Shown in pieces: positions 34,814-49,454 of a DNA stretch of 64,000 nt. The notes beneath the pieces are model-generated. The model was given only the letters and a program-made list of their open reading frames with translations, did not search any database and had not been told where the DNA came from. The stretch comes from Sanghuangporus weigelae. Taxonomy: Eukaryota; Basidiomycota; Agaricomycetes; Hymenochaetales; Hymenochaetaceae. Made by a program: the position numbers and the translations under genes. The stretch lies in contig CP137321.1 of NCBI GenBank assembly GCA_033182465.1, positions 2,480,001 to 2,544,000 on the forward strand. Reading direction: 5' to 3'. Every line of letters starts with the position of its first letter. Within the stretch, counting starts at the first letter, position 1.

Positions 34814-37306
34814 CTATTCGGCATTGTGGTCAATGTCTCCGTCTGCTGCGTGAAGCGCTTGAATGATCTTTTCCCGTGGGAGCCACTTATCTTCCGGTGT
34901 GAAGATGTAGCTCAAAATGCCAAATATCGTCGCTGCTCCGAATATCACGCAAGCCTGGAACAATACAGAAGAAGAGATAAATATTAGAAGACGTTGCATA
35001 TGCATCTAGTTTGAGGAAACGCAAAGAAGGAAGACGGAGATGAAAACGTACGAAATTGAATGTCTCGGCATCAACTGGGAAGAAGAACGGCGAGATCATG
35101 ACTGAGAAGACGAGCGCATTGAATAGTGCAGCGGCGAGGTAGAATGGCTTGCGAAAACGACCGAGATAGAAGTGTGACGCCTTAAAGTGATTCGGTGTCA
35201 TAGTGAGTCGGAGCAGCGAGATAAGACAGTACGCCGCTATCGTCGGTACTCCGCCTGCCGAAATGAGTGACGTGAAGGCGACTTGGCTAGGAAGAATTGT
35301 GCAAAGGATCGCTGCTCCAAAAATGAACATGACTGTGACGGCGTTTCGAGGTTGACCGTCCGGAGTAACCTGGCCAATCCAACCTGAGAAGGGAAGAACG
35401 CCGTCTCGCGCAATAGCGAAGATCAGACGGGATGCAGCAACAATTGCAATGCTCGTGTTCTAATAATAATAGGTTTACGAGCTTTTTCAGATGTGCAGGA
35501 ATAATTGGAACTTGCCATAATTAGACCAATAGTAGCAATAATTGTCATAACCACGCATCCTCCCTTGCCTAGCGCCATGGCAAAAATCTGCACGAATGGC
35601 TGTGGAGCTTCCAAGGCGAACAACGTATCGAGATCAGGAGTGCAGAAAAGGAATAAGATGGTCGTCGCAAATCCGAGAACACCAGTCGCAATGGCACTGG
35701 AAAAGATACCACGAGCTGCAACAACTCTAGAAGAAAGTACTCAGAGCGCGAAGTACTACAATTTGCCTGCAAGAACACACTTTGCATTCTTTGTTTCTTC
35801 TGCAATATGACCGGCCGCGTCAAAACCGGTCAGTGTACCAGCGGTGAAGAGGCTTTACAGTTGTCAGTACTTGTTATACATGGAAATGATTGAATATGTT
35901 CACAATGATAATATCCAATTCCATCCAGCAGGTGCTCCAGTACCATTGTCTGCAAGAAGACTGTGAATAACGACCTGTACCATGTCTAATTAATGAAACT
36001 CACAAGTGAATGTGAACACGTCCTTCGCCGACCGAAAGCCGTAGGAGTCAGAGACCGCGATAGGAAACCAGATGACGCAGAGCAGGAAGTCGGCCATCAT
36101 GATGAACAACGAAATCCTGAACACGGTAGAGTACAGTCTTGGAGGCAGGTAGTTGATCGCGATGGAAATAATGAGAATGACTTCAGAGAGTGCCCAGATG
36201 AAGGCACGCCATTTGATGTTATCAATTTGTACGCCACCAGGATAATCGACCTCGAACACCGTGAATAGTGAAGCGAGATAATTCGCGGTCGTCTGTCCAC
36301 AGATTAGGATAGCGGTCATACATGACAAGCGATACTTACTTGGCAGTTTCCAGCGGCGAACGTCATCCATGCAGTGCAAACCCACCACGCAACAATGAAA
36401 CCAAACAAACGAGCATGCTTCGGCCCAGCGCTTTCAGCGGCCCAGATATATATAGATCCGCTCAGAGGAAGAGCAGAACAGATCTCAGCCAGGACGGCGG
36501 CCGTAATCCACATGAAAACGATCGTGATGACATACGAAGACCTGGAAATATGATAAGGAAATTTAAGGAAATTTCCAAAGTCCAACGATAGTGTGAATAC
36601 CAGATAGCAGCGGGGCCACCCGCCAAAAGACCTAGGAAGAAGCCGGTGCTGTAGCTGATGTCAGAACGCATAGATTCAAATTGGTCTCAAGCACCCTCAC
36701 CGGACACCGCCAATGAAGTTCAATGCGCAGAAACTAGCGGCAAAGCTTTCGACTTGATGCCAAGTACGGTGTAGTTGCTAACGATGCTTTAACGGCTTAT
36801 CTTATAAGGAATGACTCTAAGTAACAAACCTGTTTGTACCCAAGCCTTTGCTGTCGATAAGAAAATATAGAAGTCAGTAAGGTCTGTAACGGCCCCGAGA
36901 AGGGGCATCAGTAATCGGCGACACTGGGGGCTTCCCTACGCAGGTCTGAGCACTGATCAGGTTCTAGCGGTATGATCTCAACCCAGCACAGGCAACTGCT
37001 GCGTTCACAGAGCCAGACGTGCCATGCAGGACGACGACTAGCAAAGGACTAATAACAACAGATACAAATGTGACTGGATACCCGCAGCCATACATCCAGC
37101 GTAGCCACTAGAAAATCGGACGTTACCAGTACGATTTTATTTCATGGATGACAGTGTTGTCTGTATCATAATGCCCATCCCTGCTTGGATCCACCCGGAC
37201 AGTGTTCGTCCGGCATTGCGATCATTACCAGCTGGAGTTCGTCCGAGTCAAGGGACGCATTCTCGACGTCGTCTGCCTTTGAATTTTGAGAGTGAGAGTC
37301 CGACAT
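34814..37306 (-). CDS. Putative thiamine transporter (Thi9-like APC permease) with riboswitch intron
   Basis: About twelve introns interrupt a 12-helix amino acid-polyamine-organocation (APC) permease of roughly 530 residues. Key pieces are LQLQRLGYKQQLHRTWHQVE, SFAASFCALNFIGGV, GFFLGLLAGGPAAIW, AAVLAEICSALPLSGSIYIW, LTGFDAAGHIAEETKNAK, NTSIAIVAASRLIFAIARDG and YIFTPEDKWLPREKIIQAL. By family alone it would be called a GABA/choline-type permease. The first intron (36851-37228, 378 nt, against about 50 for the others) contains a TPP aptamer, and the fission yeast thiamine transporter Thi9 belongs to this family, so thiamine is the likely substrate (inference). Exon 2 is only 21 nt (36830-36850). 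The intron at 35460-35515 has a GC donor. Reading through intron 1 meets a stop within about 25 codons. Confidence 0.85.
36929..37089 (-). promoter_or_regulatory. TPP (thiamine pyrophosphate) riboswitch in intron 1
   Basis: Read on the minus strand, the conserved core of the THI-box is present in order: TGAGA (36980-36976) followed by ATACC, then GAACCTGATC (ACCTGATC at 36962-36955), then GCGTAGGGAAG (36941-36931). Helices can be drawn. P1 is GGCT with AGCC (37089-37086 and 36932-36929). P2 is GGTA with TACC. P3 is a ten-pair stem of ATCCAGTCACA with TGTGCTGGGT that has one bulge and caps a long arm, as in other fungal TPP switches. P4/P5 lie in CCTGATCAG...CCTGCG. In known fungal cases TPP binding changes 5' splice-site choice and lowers expression. 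The aptamer lies between the donor at 37228 and the acceptor at 36851 of the permease gene. Confidence 0.9.
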
Positions 37307-38190: not shown

Positions 38191-39910
38191 ATGACTACAG
38201 AGCAAAAGAGTGCACTCAATATCGTTCTGGTCTGTCTTCAATTAATTCTGGCCTGTGGTATTTCTGTGTTAACTCGCGTCTTCTTCAAGGGTGCGATGAC
38301 GTTTGGAGCTCCTGGGGTTGAAGGAGCTCGTGTCACCGACCTGAAAGACGTCGAAGCAATTCTCGATGCTTTCCAGAAGCATGGACATGACGAGGTGAGG
38401 TTTTTCGCTTTGGTGACTCTGTTGATATGCGCTAACTAGATGTTTTCCTGAAGATCGATACCGCTCTTGTTTATTGCGATGGAACAAGTGAAGAGTATCT
38501 AGGTAAACTAGGTTGGCAGAAGCGTGGTCTCAAGATGGATACAAAGTTGTACCCGAGTATCGTGCGTATATCTAAGGCCGGGCTTTTAAAACTCCTAATT
38601 GTTATGATACTTTAATAGATGCTGCCTATGATCCAAGGAAAGTTCCTGATTTCGCACAAGCCCGAGGTATTATCTGATTCCTGTCACTGCACGTGGGATT
38701 GTATTTGATGAAGTTCCCTTCAAGGATTTGCGAAAATTCCTTCAGATCCAGCTCAAGGCTTTGAACACCGAGTACGTGCCGTTGACCTCGTTGTTTATGG
38801 CCAAACGGCTAATCACACTCGTTGCTCTTGCAGTAAATTGGATATGTGGTACTTGCATGGACCTGATAGGACGACGCCATATGACGTGACCTTGAAAGCG
38901 GTAGACGAATTGTATAAAGAAGGGTACGTCAAGGTTACACTTTTCACAGTGTTTCTCGACTCTAAAGGTGCCCCAGTTACTTCAAGCGCTTTGGAATTAG
39001 TAACTATACTTCGTAAGCGAGCGTTCTTATCCGTAAAAAGATGCGTGGCTAATGAAAAGACGATTTTCAGCTGGGAGGTGGCAGAAATTGTTACGATTTG
39101 CAGGGAAAGAGGATATGTCCAGCCGACAGTCTACCAGGGTGTTTACAATGCTATCCTCAGGTAAAGATATTCTGAGTAACGTATCGGCTTGTTGTGAAAT
39201 TCTCAATGTTTTATTCAGATCTGTTGAGCCGGAGTTGTTCCCCTGCTTGAGGAAGTTCGGCCTTAGCTTCTACGGATTTAATGCTCGTACGTACATTCTA
39301 CATATGACTTTTCACGTCACAAATTGCCTAACGAACGTGTTCGATCCAGTTGCCGGAGGCTTTTTCACAGGTCGGTACACCGGACCTGACGCGAAAGTCG
39401 AGAAGGGAGCGCGGTTCGACTCGGACAGGAAAGTAGGCCAAATGTACAGGAAGAGGTGCTCATATTTCACTTCGTTACGCCTACTCGTGTACTGAATTAT
39501 TTTTTTTGGCGTAGGTACTGGAACGAGCCCCACTTTCACGCGCTTGAAACAGTCAAGGAAGCCGCGGATAAGCACGGGCTGACTCTTGCAGAAGTTGCTT
39601 TGCGTTGGGTCTCCCACCATAGTCTTATGAAACGGGAGTTTGGTGACTCTATCTTGATTGGAGCCTCCAGTCTCAAACACATTGAGCAGGTAAGCATGGC
39701 GAAAAACTTGTGGCTGACTGGTTTGATGCGTGGCTTCGAATTGGATTTAGAACCTGGATGATCTTGATAAGGGCCCTCTACGTGAGTACCTTTGATTTGG
39801 AGAACGTTTGGATGATAGTCAACATTCCCTCTTTAGCCGAAGATGTCGTCAAGGCTCTTGATGAGGCCTGGTTGATCGTCAAGCCATATGCGGCCAACTA
39901 TTTCCATTGA
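38191..39910 (+). CDS. AKR7-type aldo-keto reductase, tandem copy A
   Basis: Eleven or so short introns. The spliced protein reads GAMTFGAPGVEGARVTDLKD, IDTALVYCDGTSEEYLG (catalytic Asp and Tyr), MDTKLYPSI (Lys), MWYLHGPDRTTPYDVTLKAV (His), FKRFGISNY, PTVYQGVYNAILR, LAGGFFTGRYTGPDAKVEKG and WVSHHSLMKREFGDSILIGA. This is the layout of the AKR7 / aflatoxin-aldehyde reductase group (NADPH-dependent TIM barrel reducing dialdehydes and ketones, cytosolic). The frame is intact. Intron 1 (60 nt) is open in frame and, if retained, would add a hydrophobic segment after NIVL. The copy is nearly identical to copy B, introns included. Confidence 0.88.
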
Positions 39911-40394
39911 TTTGACGGGGAGGAGCTGGTCCAGTAATGCCAGAAACAGATGTCATCGAAGTTACGCTTACCGTTAAGTAAATGATGTAAAATGAAATTA
40001 TATAGGAGGCAACCAGAATCTTGTGTTATAAATTACACTAAACAACACAACCTTCTCTGTGTTACCATTATGGTTGCATCCGTACAGTGAGGCACGTACA
40101 GTATTTGATGAAATGACGTAATGCTCCCGGCAAATCACCGTGATCACTTGCCGCCGGCTCAGGAAACCCCGGACCGTTGGCTAAGGTAGGACAACCGGCT
40201 CAGGACGCGTAATGCTTACGGCACGGATTTTTATCGGCAAGCAAGACTTCCTACATATCCCGTCTGTCTGGAGAGGAGTGTTGTTGGGTATAAGTAGCCC
40301 ACCGAAAACATTATGGATTTACAGCGCAGCGAAGCATCTTCTGCTCACATTATTCATTGACAGTCCCTCTTCAAATTTGAATCAGAAATACAAA

Positions 40395-42122
<1,728 letters not shown>

Positions 42123-42498
42123 TTTGACCGGGAGATGGTCCTGCAATCCCGAGAACAGAAATCATTAAAACTACGCTTACCGATGTAAAATAATATTATG
42201 TATGTGTATGAATGGAATGAAATTGAAGAAACGACTGAAGAAAATGAAAATGAAACCGCATCAGTGCTCAGAAACTGTAGATATTTCTGCAACGGTTCTT
42301 GTTCTTATTTCTTGTTCTTCTTATTTGATCGTCTATATTTGTCGCTAGTCTACGTTTGGTAAAAATACTAGTAGAGTAGGAACATGCGCATCTGACAAGG
42401 GACGCGAACCTTACTCAGCGTGAGATTAGACCTGGTGCCATATAATTAGTAATATTTCTCTTGCTCGTCCCGTCCACATCCATCTACTGTATTGCAAT
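42123..42498. other. Intergenic region between AKR copies B and C
   Basis: About 375 bp. The first ~70 bp resemble the 3' flank of copy A; the rest is AT-rich and unassigned. Confidence 0.4.
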
Positions 42499-44242
<1,744 letters not shown>

Positions 44243-44493: not shown

Positions 44494-47400
44494 TCACGAG
44501 ATTCCGATTCTCTGTAGCAGATCATTAGGACCGTCTCCGGCTAATTGCATGAAATAGAGAAATCGCTCACAGGTTTCAAAGCCTTGATCAGAAGCCATTC
44601 TTCAGTTGTGACGTCAGCTTTGAAGGTCGTCTGAAGAAACAAATCAGTGCAAGACAATCGAAAGATAGGGCCAGTTACTCGTACCTTCAGCACGTCGATG
44701 CTTGCGCGAGTTATGTGGCTAATGACTTCATCTTTCTCGTCAAAGTGTCGTCCAAACATCTTCGCAGATTGGTATACAGCGTGTTCAATCTTCACCGCGA
44801 CGCCTCCGCCGGCTTGTGATTTCTTGACGATCTACGATTACCCGTCAGTATCAAACTCTGCTCGGGGAAAATGTAGCATACTAACATCCAAAGACTTGTG
44901 ATTGATTTCCAACGATGTACTAATAATTCGGATCTGTCAGTCATGCGCAACCAACGTAACCAAAGAAAGGCACTAACATTTTCCCGAGGTCGATAATTTC
45001 TTTCTTCTGTGTCACCGGGTCTACCCTCACAACACATAACGGTGTCCCAACTCTCAATGTGCCGTCTAGAATGTCGACACCCAGGATGATTGGATCACGC
45101 TTGGCGAAGCATGTGATGATCTTCAGCCTACACGGCCAAACGGCCTGGGGTGCGGCATCACGACGTTTCGCTTCCGTGATCTCCGCATTGTACGCGGTGA
45201 ATGCGTCGAAGAGATGGTATATGATGTCCGCTGTGCAGTTCATCAGAGACTTAATAAAAGGAAGTGGAAGAACACATGCTTACCTTTGAATAATTTGATA
45301 CCGAGCTCATCAGCAAGCCTCTCTGCATCTCTGTCGACAGGCACATCGAAGCAAAGAATGCAAGCGAGTTCCTTCGCTTTCTCGAGCACCGTCGCACATC
45401 GCATCACATCTTTCTTGTGTACAGGGCCAATATTGATACCAGAGACCGGAATCTTGCTGACTTTGAGGAAGTCGAGCAATGCCTCCAAGGAACCAAGCGT
45501 ACTGGCCTGAACGCAGACGCCCCTTCCAGACTTATCGATGGAATTGAGTAGGGTAGTGAGGTCAGCCATGACTTCGTCTTTAAGGTCATCTTCGTCGTCT
45601 TCAGGCCCGACCACAAGTAAGCGAGAGCCAGCAATAGCCTTCTCCAGGTCTGGAGCAGAAATCTTCACACCAAGCGCTGCTTTGACCTCTTTGTGGTGTA
45701 CGTATTGTGACTGAAGCAGATTGTTAATTTTCCACTGTACCAAGTAATCGCCAATCAACTCACCTTTATACGCAGCTCACGCAGTGGTTGAGGCGTGAGT
45801 AGTGCTCGAATCTGCGTGACGATCGGTCCATTGAGACCGCAAACGACGATCTTCTCTCCCTCGCGGAGGATGCCATTCGAGAGGACTACATCAATGGTCG
45901 TACCCAGACCTTCGATAACCTTGACTTCAAGCACGGTACACTCGAGCTCCGAAAGATACATCAGCCGGTCGCTCATACGCTGTTGCGTCAAGTTGACGAG
46001 AAGCATAATCATGTCGGGGACACCTTCGCCTGTGATAGCTGATGTTGGCACGAGCGACACGTTACGAGCAAAACTCTTGTTCTCATAGTAAAGCACGGCG
46101 TTGAGTCCCTGCTCGGCGAACGCGAGAATCGTCTTCTGTACACGATCTGCAAATTCACGCTGCACTGCAGGCTTTTGCTTTGCTAATGAATCACGGAATG
46201 CATTATCTGGTGTCGCTTCCCAGCCGTATAGACGATCGATCTAGTATCACAGTAAGCTCAAAGACGAATATACAGTCGAGGTGGTCGATGAAGCATACCT
46301 TATTTAGAGCAACAATGAACGGAGTCTTCCTGTCTCGCAATAATCGCAGAGATTCGAGGGTTTGTTGTTCAAGCCCATGCTACCAAACAATCGGAACGTG
46401 TCCTATCTCGATGGGGATGGACCAGACGCACCATGATATCGACAACAAGAATCGCAATATTACACAGCGAACTACCACGCGACCGCAGGTTTGTGAAAGA
46501 TTCGTGTCCGGGTGTGTCGATAATGAGCAGACCAGGAATCTTGTATTCTTGCGTTCCGTCCTACGATGAAAAGACAGTAAGTATCTGTCTTATAAAAGTA
46601 TGACGGACATTGTACCTTGTTCAGGACTACTGTCTTCGTTTTAATTGCATCAACAGGGAAATATGTTGCACCAATTTGCTGAGTGATACCACCTGCTTCG
46701 CCTTCTTGTACATTGGTTTGGCGAATCTAAGGACGATATCAGCCTTGGGGTCTCGATCCATCGAAGACATGACGCGTACCTTGTCAAGCAGTTTGGTCTT
46801 GCCGGTGTCGACGTGCCCAAGAATACAGCAAATAGGGCTGCGCAAATCATCTTTACTTCGTGCAGCCAGGGCCGCCTCGTGGACCTTAGCTCGTCTTTCG
46901 GCAGCCTGAGCTTTCCGTTGCATAGCTATTCGTTGTGTCTTCGTCAAGCCTTCGTCATCTTCGGATTCATCTTCAGAGTCCTCATCGGAAGTCTCCTCTT
47001 CAGATGATTCTTCAGATTCAGATTCAGACTCTTCCTCATCTTCCTCGTCTTTCGATTTAGCTGCTGGGGCTGGCGCCTTTGCAGTAGGAGCAACAGGTTT
47101 GGGAGTGGGCGCTGATTCCTTGGACGGCGCAGGAACGGCCACTTTTGAGGGCACTTTCGTTGGAGAGGAGACACCATTCGCTTCAGAGACCATAAGCAAC
47201 AACGACATACTAAGAAGTGATGGGAGCATACCATTAGCTTTTTGTTGCACGGCAGGCTCGGGTTGAGCGGCACGTTTGGGTGATTTGGTAGCCTTCGTCG
47301 GTTCAGGCTTGCTCTCCTCGTCAGAGCTACTTGCGTCCCAATCGCTCTTGACACCATCTGCTGTTGCAGGAGTCTCAGGTTTCTCATGTTCACTTTCAGC

Positions 47401-49038
47401 GTCCCAATCGTCTCTGACCTCAACCTTTGGTGATGCGGTGGCAGAAGGTGGTTCGGACGAAGGAAGGTCTTCCGTCTTTACCACAGGAGATTGCACTTCG
47501 GGAGTAAGAGCTTGTGTTGACGAACGATCGTCATCATCCCTGCCCTTTGGTCCTGGTTTCTTCTTGCGGTTTCCGTACACCGGCCGTTTCTGCTTCTCGC
47601 TCTTGGATAGACCTTCAATCTGAACGCCAGAAGCAAGGAGAGCCTGCTTTCGAAGCTCGGCCCGACGCTGCTCCTCCTTTTGTTTAGGCGTCAGATATCG
47701 ACCCTCTTTCTTTGCTTGTTCTCTCTTCGCCTGGAATACAATGAGTTATCAGAAGCTTCGCTAAATGGTCCAACTTTACCTTCTCGCGCTCTTTCTTCAT
47801 CCGTTTCTCTTCCTCCTTTCTCTTCTCTTCCTCTCTTAACCTCTGTTCCTCTTCTTCTATCCTCCTGCGCTCTTCCTCTACTCTTCTTTGCGCCTCCTCT
47901 TCTAATCTTTTCTTCTCTTCCATCATTGCCTTCAACGCACCAATCCCGCCTGCTTTCTTCTTCGTGGGCGCCGGTGCTGGTGGTGCCTCCTCTTCCTTCT
48001 TCACAGGCTTCTTTTTCTTCTTCTTTTTATCAGACTTCCCTCCGGCTCCATCCTCATCTTCTTTTTCCTCTTTTCCTTCAGCCGGTGCAGGGGTAGCAGG
48101 GACAGGCTCCTCACGCTCTGCAGGCTGGGTGTCTTCACCCGAAACTCCCTTCTTCGCGGCTGCCTGAGCTTTTTTCTTCGCCTGTAGATTTAACTTAGCC
48201 CAGTACTTGTGAAGAAGGAATAGAACGTCTAATACCTTTTCACGCTCCTTCTTGAGCTTTTCCTTCTCTTTCTTAGAGAGGACCTTAACTTCTGGATCTT
48301 CGGCACCTTCGTCACCCTCTGGTTTCTCAACATCACCTGTTTCTTCTAGAAGGGATGTTAGCCATAATCTGAATGTATCAGGAAAGTAGACGCACGCCTT
48401 TCGTTCTCCTTCTCTTCTTCGTCGGCCTTGCCCTTCTTACCCTTCTTCTTCTTTCCGCCTTTCTCCTTCACAGGCCCCCATTCTTCGTCGGCGAGGTCAT
48501 CAGCAGTCACCGTCGCGGCTTTGGATGAAGCGCTGATGTCTCCCTTCGCAGCTGCAGCTTCTGTATCGGAGCCCTCTCCGGGTCGAGGGCCATCAGCAAA
48601 GGATACGGAACGAGCCTCATCTGCTTCAGCGAGAGCATTAAAGTTGGCTCCTTTCGTCTTCTTCTTGTCCTTCTTCCCTTTCTTTGACGAGGCTTGGAGG
48701 GCAGCCTGAAGATAGATGTAAACGATATGCTGAGAACAAAGGATGATGAGACTCACCATCAGCCCACCGAAATCCTCTTCATTCTCCATCCCTACTTCTG
48801 ACGGATCTACACCCAAGTCCGCGAAAGTGCTTTTATTTGAGGAAGCAGCACCAACTTCCGCATCTTCCCCGACATCTGCAACGTTATTTCCGGCGACAGA
48901 CTCGCCTGCTGTTGCCCTGTAAATTTTTGTAATGTAAGAAGGCGAGTTACAATAACTTGACTGAGAGCGGATCACTGACCAGTATTCGTCATCATCATCC
49001 TGCTTCTTTCCCTTCTTTCCTTTGTTCTTTGGTGCCAT
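44494..49038 (-). CDS. FUN12: Translation initiation factor eIF5B (Fun12)
   Basis: The start [20 protein letters not shown] opens a long Lys/Glu-rich N-terminal half, with [20 protein letters not shown] and an acidic serine run, that is disordered in the family. The GTPase then follows: [20 protein letters not shown] (G1), [20 protein letters not shown] (G2), [20 protein letters not shown] (G3), [20 protein letters not shown] (G4), and [20 protein letters not shown] (G5). Domains II-IV continue with [20 protein letters not shown] and [20 protein letters not shown]. eIF5B joins ribosomal subunits after start-codon recognition. At the end, LIKALKP is best followed by a 59-nt intron with a CTAAT branch site and a final exon RIGIS (stop at 44494); without it the protein would end DFSISCN at 44541. 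Confidence 0.94.
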
Positions 49039-49454
49039 TTCGTATTATCTTTGCGTCGATTGTAAGTGTTTTAATTGACGAAAAGGGCAGTATTAGTGGA
49101 TGTCGTGGCGAGAGTAAGAGATGCACTGGACGTATGCACACTTTCTGGCACGGCATCCAGGACGGAGATCGGCCGGGAATATCCGTTTCAGTCATCTTTG
49201 CCGGCGGATAGTCCTTGGTCCTGACTGTCATCTCGAGTATGTCTAACAGCACCTCACCTATTGTATAATCACGCAATGCACGCAGCACAAGAAGATAGAC
49301 CGAATCTATAATATCCGAATGGTACACATAAGGTAAGATATATCCAATAAATATTGTGAAAGATCCATCCTAAACCACTGTCCAATCAATGAAAATGCCA
49401 GTATATATACGTGAATGAGTAGTGCCAGTGAAAAATAAGTATCGTGGTATCATG
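49039..49454. other. Intergenic region, nothing recognised
   Basis: About 415 bp between two minus-strand genes; it should hold the eIF5B promoter. No motif stands out. Confidence 0.4.

Follow-up and report, generated by a model that had tools for sequence, protein, structure and literature searches.

A TPP riboswitch of the amino-acid-permease class in the first intron of a Sanghuangporus weigelae gene, with a candidate long-distance splicing switch

The permease gene and its surroundings

The window analysed here, a 64-kb stretch from the genome of the wood-decay fungus Sanghuangporus weigelae, carries on its minus strand an amino-acid/GABA-permease-like gene (34814..37306) that encodes 532 amino acids in 11 exons, with splice sites read from the sequence. 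Exon 1 spans 37306-37229, exon 2 36850-36830 and the last exon 34954-34814. The first two enclose intron 1 (36851..37228), the host of the riboswitch, which measures 378 nt compared with 46-97 nt for the nine other introns of the gene model; the sequence-only reading from which we started had the length of intron 1 right but had put the others at about 50 nt. Intron 9 (35515-35460, minus strand) is apparently of the GC-AG type with a GCAAGT donor, a reading demanded by the frame. In Pfam, the protein matches AA_permease_2 (PF13520, E 1.5e-48). Its closest relative, the Sanghuangporus vaninii protein ACEPAH_6204, itself predicted, is 95% identical over 100% coverage, and proteins from Pyrrhoderma and Coniferiporia are 80-82% identical. 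We consider the gene model sound because of this full-length identity to the S. vaninii protein and the equal length of the two.

Intron 1 follows codon 26 and falls between ..DELQL and QRLGYKQ.. of the permease protein. The residues QL or QM are found shortly before LGYKQQLHR in six of the seven relatives that we fetched (in P0003 with an insert) and are absent from the seventh, the Fomitiporia relative P0013, whose N terminus is unrelated to that of the permease. Query coverage is only 82-90% in many of the relatives listed, and gene predictors failing at the riboswitch intron may be the source of such shortened or odd proteins. No paralogue was detected in the S. weigelae genome at E <= 1e-10, all six exon matches being to the same gene, and no relatives were found in viral contigs with the S. 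vaninii protein as query.

When intron 1 is left in the RNA, the reading frame ends at a TGA at 37168-37166, after 20 intron codons and 46 codons from the ATG; the sequence-only reading had given about 25 codons. At the other end of the intron, a branch-point-like CTGAC (36877-36873), a pyrimidine-rich tract and the 3' splice site TCGACAG can be read from the sequence on the minus strand (36851..36877). The stretch that separates the aptamer from the branch point includes a short G+C-rich hairpin, GCCCC..GGGGC (36892-36906, minus strand).

On the plus strand, three tandem aldo/keto-reductase-like copies follow at 38192-44100. They were named from the sequence by eye, a family search on them gave no match, and two of the three (38192 and 40397) closely resemble each other in promoter and start. 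Beyond them, upstream of the permease and on the same strand as it, lies an eIF5B gene (44541-49044, minus strand), whose ORFs were joined by eye. Evidence for its identity comes from an IF-2 domain in 45243-45776 (E 7e-14) and a GTP_EFTU piece in 46627-47745 (E 4e-4, below the family cut-off); two more ORFs of the locus have no family match.

The aptamer

The TPP aptamer occupies 36929..37089 on the minus strand. Its helices are P1 (37089-37086/36932-36929, 4 bp), P2 (37085-37082/36970-36967 plus 37080/36973, 4+1 bp, with the unpaired G and top U-A pair of the Rfam consensus), P3 (37079-37074 and 37072-37069/36981-36990, 10 bp with one bulge), P4 (36961-36958/36938-36935, 4 bp) and P5 (36955-36953 and 36951/36944-36941, 4 bp with a bulged U). 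The core elements UGAGA, ACC, GAACCUGAUC and GCGUAGGGA are all present in this order, J3/2 begins UGAGAUC, and L5 reads CUCAGA. With the 5' strands placed where the sequence-only reading had put them, 27/27 pairs of P1-P5 are standard. The coordinates, strand, core motifs and helices that it had proposed are confirmed. Across both strands of the window, the 19 pairs required of the 5' half of the aptamer can all be formed at 37089 (minus strand) only; the next best places, seven in number, allow 16 of the 19. Beyond a 6x1 internal loop, the stem continues as an extended P1, whose 5' strand (37096..37106, minus strand) makes 10 pairs with 36927-36917. This duplex is worth -18.0 kcal/mol, a value reached by 12 of 25,596 window 14-mers, its own place included. 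The aptamer fold is not the predicted ligand-free minimum, and folding of intron 1 as a whole is not unusually stable (z -1.23, with 10 of 100 shuffles equally good).

The Rfam TPP model RF00059 matches 37009-36916 (minus strand) with 33.1 bits, corresponding to E 1.3e-4 for the 701 nt searched, 0.012 for the 64-kb window and 0.0015 for the fungus's own genome. The gathering score of the model is 54.3 bits, at which nothing is reported for the riboswitch intron. The sequence-only reading had looked to a significant match for support and to the lack of one above threshold for refutation: the match is there at E 1.3e-4, and formally its 33.1 bits also place it on the refuting side of 54.3. In the alignment, the core is matched while P1-P3 are forced onto the sequence just 5' of it. 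We attribute the low score to a 78-nt insert at the end of P3 (36991..37068, minus strand, from the RF00059 alignment and the helix placement), which hides P1-P3 from the model. Shortened RF00059 matches are described in passages of PMC11683625 for riboswitches in which P3 typically exceeds 60 nt.

In a heuristic search of the whole genome, which scored 49 of 1141 candidates, the aptamer was the sole RF00059 match at E <= 10, and no second riboswitch appeared. In 33.87 Mb, the pattern TGAGA..ACC..GAACCTGATC has a single occurrence and its reversed control none. A looser half-pattern has eight places in the genome versus two for the reversed control; judged by the matched strings alone, only that in the window looks TPP-like. 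That the aptamer is real we hold to be close to certain.

A competing helix and two similar donors

Between the 5' splice site and the aptamer lies an element, here called alpha (37162..37212, minus strand), that includes the in-frame TGA and is complementary to the P4-P5-P1' strand of the aptamer. Its partner, which we call the switching strand (36916..36959, minus strand), comprises P4, P5, P1' and extended P1' and can pair either within the aptamer or with alpha. Together, 37212-37162 and 36959-36916 can form 36 pairs that cover P4, L5, P5, P1' and extended P1', so the alpha helix and the aptamer are mutually exclusive. Alpha emerged from a scan of the gene for stretches complementary to the core: of 2378 16-mers, the one at 37184 in intron 1 was best, and it was then extended. 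The duplex of the alpha 50-mer with the 43-nt strand has a predicted energy of -45.7 kcal/mol. None of 25,430 window 50-mers and none of 941 blocks of about 139 nt reaches this value; among randomized sequences, it was reached by one of 3000 shuffles of the element, 0/3000 of the strand and 0/400 of the region. The P4-P5 arm of the pairing, taken alone, is equalled by 16 of 63,616 window 28-mers and by 5 of 921 blocks. For three further stretches of 43 nt, in and after the aptamer, the best partners reach -24.9, -36.5 and -28.9. An initial, unfocused control, which set the region 37228-37090 against the core, was equalled by 2.25% and 2.2% of 2000 shuffles each and by 3.5% of 1304 window segments. 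The looser alpha of 40 pairs to which this comparison of the whole region with the core belongs was thus of no more than modest significance, and imposing it on five fragments took about 15 kcal/mol; the contiguous version took its place.

In minimum-free-energy predictions, alpha forms with 36 pairs in three of seven fragments and with 33 in one; the three longest have none of its pairs. In ligand-free folding, three key pairs of alpha have a probability of 0.86-1.0 in four of the seven fragments and of 0.46-0.84 in those three, while that of the tested P4 pair is 0.0 in all seven. In six fragments, the penalty for imposing the aptamer on the free ensemble is 11.7-15.5 kcal/mol, and that for imposing the inner 19 alpha pairs 0.8-0.9 kcal/mol. 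The cost of the aptamer would have to be paid by the energy of the ligand or by folding during transcription. For a ligand this predicted gap is large, which may point to a weakness of the switch model or to an energy model that performs poorly at such length.

How would the intron choose where it is spliced? The productive splice uses the donor S1, CTG/GTAATG (CTGGTAATG, 37223..37231, minus strand), at the intron start 37228. A candidate second donor, S2a, reads CTG/GTAACG (CTGGTAACG, 37121..37129, minus strand) and has its GU at 37126. These are the only two occurrences of CTGGTAAYG on either strand of the 64-kb window. Use of S2a would add 102 nt to exon 1, in frame, and would bring in the TGA at 37168-37166. 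With alpha paired, the base of the helix is 16 nt from S1 and 65 nt from the acceptor; with the aptamer and extended P1 formed, the distances are about 20 nt for S2a and about 66 nt for the acceptor. In each fold, donor and acceptor distances add up to a value within the 46-97 nt range of the permease's other introns. The predicted openness of S1 is 0.25-0.46 with the aptamer versus 0.27-0.37 with alpha, with no consistent direction, and that of S2a is 0.57-0.66 versus 0.66. As the openness of the two donors hardly differs between the folds, any effect must come through distance rather than masking. A donor-like GUAUGG begins at 37093, inside the 6x1 internal loop of the extended P1, and its predicted unpaired probability rises from 0.24-0.31 to 0.64 once the aptamer is formed. 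It was considered as the second donor, and S2a was preferred because GUAUGG is a poorer match to the donor consensus and the internal loop that holds it is closed.

The proposed switch, its rivals and its relatives

The riboswitch is an added member of the published class TPPsw^AA, also known as Type III. According to passages of PMC11683625 and PMC5882874, features common in this class are an amino-acid-permease gene, an internal intron of 200-400 nt and a long P3, together with an L5 without RUAAUR, a motif that PMC11683625 describes as missing from L5 of TPPsw^AA, and an in-frame stop between two donors, the second of which is here the candidate S2a. Among the settings in which PMC5882874 places TPP riboswitches are internal introns of 200-400 nt and basidiomycete amino-acid transporters. 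In S. weigelae, the host is a PF13520 gene of a basidiomycete, whose nearest proteins come from Sanghuangporus, Coniferiporia and Pyrrhoderma; its L5 is CUCAGA, and its 378-nt internal intron has S1 at 37228, the candidate S2a at 37126 and the TGA at 37168-37166. Sequence, structure and fit to a published class therefore lend good support to the original claim that a permease gene carries a TPP riboswitch in its first intron. The accompanying appeal to the rarity of eukaryotic riboswitches was too strong, as PMC11683625 speaks of 378 TPP riboswitch sequences across 140 fungal species. A literature search on riboswitches in Sanghuangporus led only to work on another mushroom.

Our main reading, to which we assign a probability of roughly 0.6, is that a TPP riboswitch of class TPPsw^AA responds to abundant TPP by shutting off the transporter through alternative splicing. 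That the intron acts as an OFF switch through splicing is likely in itself. How it would do so we can propose in some detail, and the mechanism, switching by long-distance pairing between alpha and its strand with twin donors, is put forward as a candidate that falls somewhat short of even odds. When TPP is absent, alpha (37212-37162) would pair with the P4-P5-P1' strand (36959-36916) and loop out about 200 nt, leaving S1 and the acceptor at a span normal for introns of this permease; S1 would be used and the full transporter made. When TPP is present, the aptamer and the extended P1 would capture the switching strand and free alpha. S2a would now stand at a normal intron length from the acceptor, or else the intron would be retained; in either case the RNA would carry the TGA at 37168-37166 and be destined for decay or for a 46-aa fragment. 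A single 44-nt strand may thus pair either within the aptamer or with an element about 200 nt farther upstream, and each fold would set one of two nearly identical donors at the usual intron distance from the acceptor, an arrangement that we advance tentatively. The aptamer itself is an ordinary, well-confirmed addition to a recently described class; the candidate mechanism is unusually explicit and, with its strands and twin donors named, concrete enough for a single minigene to put it to the test.

Several other readings have to be weighed against this one. That the resemblance to a TPP aptamer arose by chance is scarcely credible: the curated Rfam cut-off is indeed not reached, but the RF00059 E-values, the unique core pattern, the extended P1, the unique 19/19 of the 5' half and the expected gene class and intron all speak against it. 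Hardly more persuasive is a decayed relic, in which the aptamer would still be recognisable after binding or switching was lost. The sub-threshold Rfam score, the bulged U in P5, the L5 without UAAU and the costly predicted aptamer fold could be read in this way; yet the core motifs and 27/27 pairs are intact, the extended P1 has been kept, and the absence of UAAU is normal for TPPsw^AA in the description of PMC11683625.

The remaining two readings concern the manner of switching. In the style of NMT1, a free strand of the aptamer, either GATCATACC of J3/2-P2 or P4-P5, might pair with S1 or S2 until TPP releases the donor; if S1 were the masked site, TPP would be an ON signal. By eye, S1 (GGTAATGATC) makes nine pairs with GATCATACC, with one bulge, and direct masking by J3/2-P2 was tried on this ground, but the best duplex of an S1 16-mer with the core, at -13.1 kcal/mol, is ordinary against three controls, being equalled by 12% of 2378 gene windows, 10% of 5000 shuffles and 9% of 78 GGUAA sites. 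We regard masking as improbable. Intron retention has rather more in its favour and is still unlikely in our view: TPP binding would keep S1 from being used productively, and the RNA left unspliced, stop codon included, would be degraded, with S2a and alpha idle. Read-through of intron 1 does stop early, and in Candida parapsilosis DUR31, as presented in passages of PMC5997356, thiamin raises the unspliced RNA while the second donor is little regulated. Retention, however, accounts for neither the alpha helix nor the twin donors, and the predicted openness of S1 shows no consistent fall when the aptamer is formed.

The proposed alpha switch is reminiscent of other fungal systems and differs from each of them. 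The Type III scheme, in the passages of PMC5882874 that set it out, is a generalised prediction with no named pairing partner, whereas a specific competitor helix of 36 pairs is proposed here. In the NMT1 gene of Neurospora crassa (Type I; PMC5882874), the P4-P5 strand likewise pairs near the 5' splice sites, but the intron there belongs to the 5'UTR and comes with a uORF, whereas in S. weigelae it is internal, after codon 26, and alpha covers no donor. Closer in its logic is N. crassa NCU01977 (Type II, urea-type), where the same source describes long-distance pairing of P1' with an element between S1 and S2 that promotes the distal donor. Its intron, however, is of the 650-900 nt class found in urea-type transporters only, in contrast to 378 nt, an amino-acid-type permease and a partner strand that includes P4 and P5 here. 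The S. weigelae riboswitch accordingly falls outside Type II, which is defined by a urea-type transporter and an intron of 650-900 nt. The Type II alpha consensus RGCGGYRRY lies between the donors and is complementary to P1'; our element is complementary to P1' and P4-P5. Long-distance pairing is described in these passages of PMC5882874 as confined to urea-type transporters. A combination of the NMT1 logic (P4-P5) with that of NCU01977 (P1', distance), outside the urea-type transporters, is thus conceivable on the modelled pairings, with the odds slightly against it. C. parapsilosis DUR31 shares a thiamin transporter gene, an intronic aptamer and two donors with a stop between them (PMC5997356), but it belongs to another transporter family, and experiment there showed mostly intron retention.

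But what does the permease carry? By analogy with the Thi9 group of Moldovan et al. 2018, a related known system cited in passages of PMC5997356, the transporter probably imports thiamine or a precursor. Among the thiamine genes of the S. weigelae genome, TMP synthase is present (97.4 bits), as is a Thi4-family gene in two exons (166.5 and 149.9 bits). THI4 is a likely but not proven name for the latter, because the Thi4 family also matches in all 14 control genomes; RF00059 finds no riboswitch near it (6717 bases, E <= 1). The genome holds 26 matches to cytosine-purine-type transporters and one to SSF (40.1 bits, with stops inside). THI5/NMT1 was found neither by family search nor by a yeast-protein search that had no positive control, while other thiamine genes were matched. 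If THI5 is truly absent, this suggests that the fungus would need thiamine or its pyrimidine from outside. Uptake may therefore matter, which suits a riboswitch on an importer, and the riboswitch suggests that S. weigelae, where THI5 went undetected, governs its thiamine mainly by taking it up.

Finally, the locus bears on a puzzle in the literature. In passages of PMC5882874, TPP riboswitches are assigned to eIF5B of two fungi: to an intron of the gene in Gloeophyllum trabeum, and to the 3'UTR of two copies of it in Postia placenta. Four of the 131 listed relatives of our permease (P0005, P0036, P0085 and P0125) carry the name eIF5B or translation initiation factor 5B, and the Pfam domains listed for these four are those of an amino-acid permease only. 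Because such relatives bear this name and because eIF5B lies upstream of the permease on the same strand, the published 'riboswitch in eIF5B' is probably a mislabelled permease. We infer that the two genes lie side by side in other species and that a fused or transferred annotation misnames the permease there. The arrangement in S. weigelae probably clears up the riboswitches reported in or beside eIF5B of Gloeophyllum and Postia.
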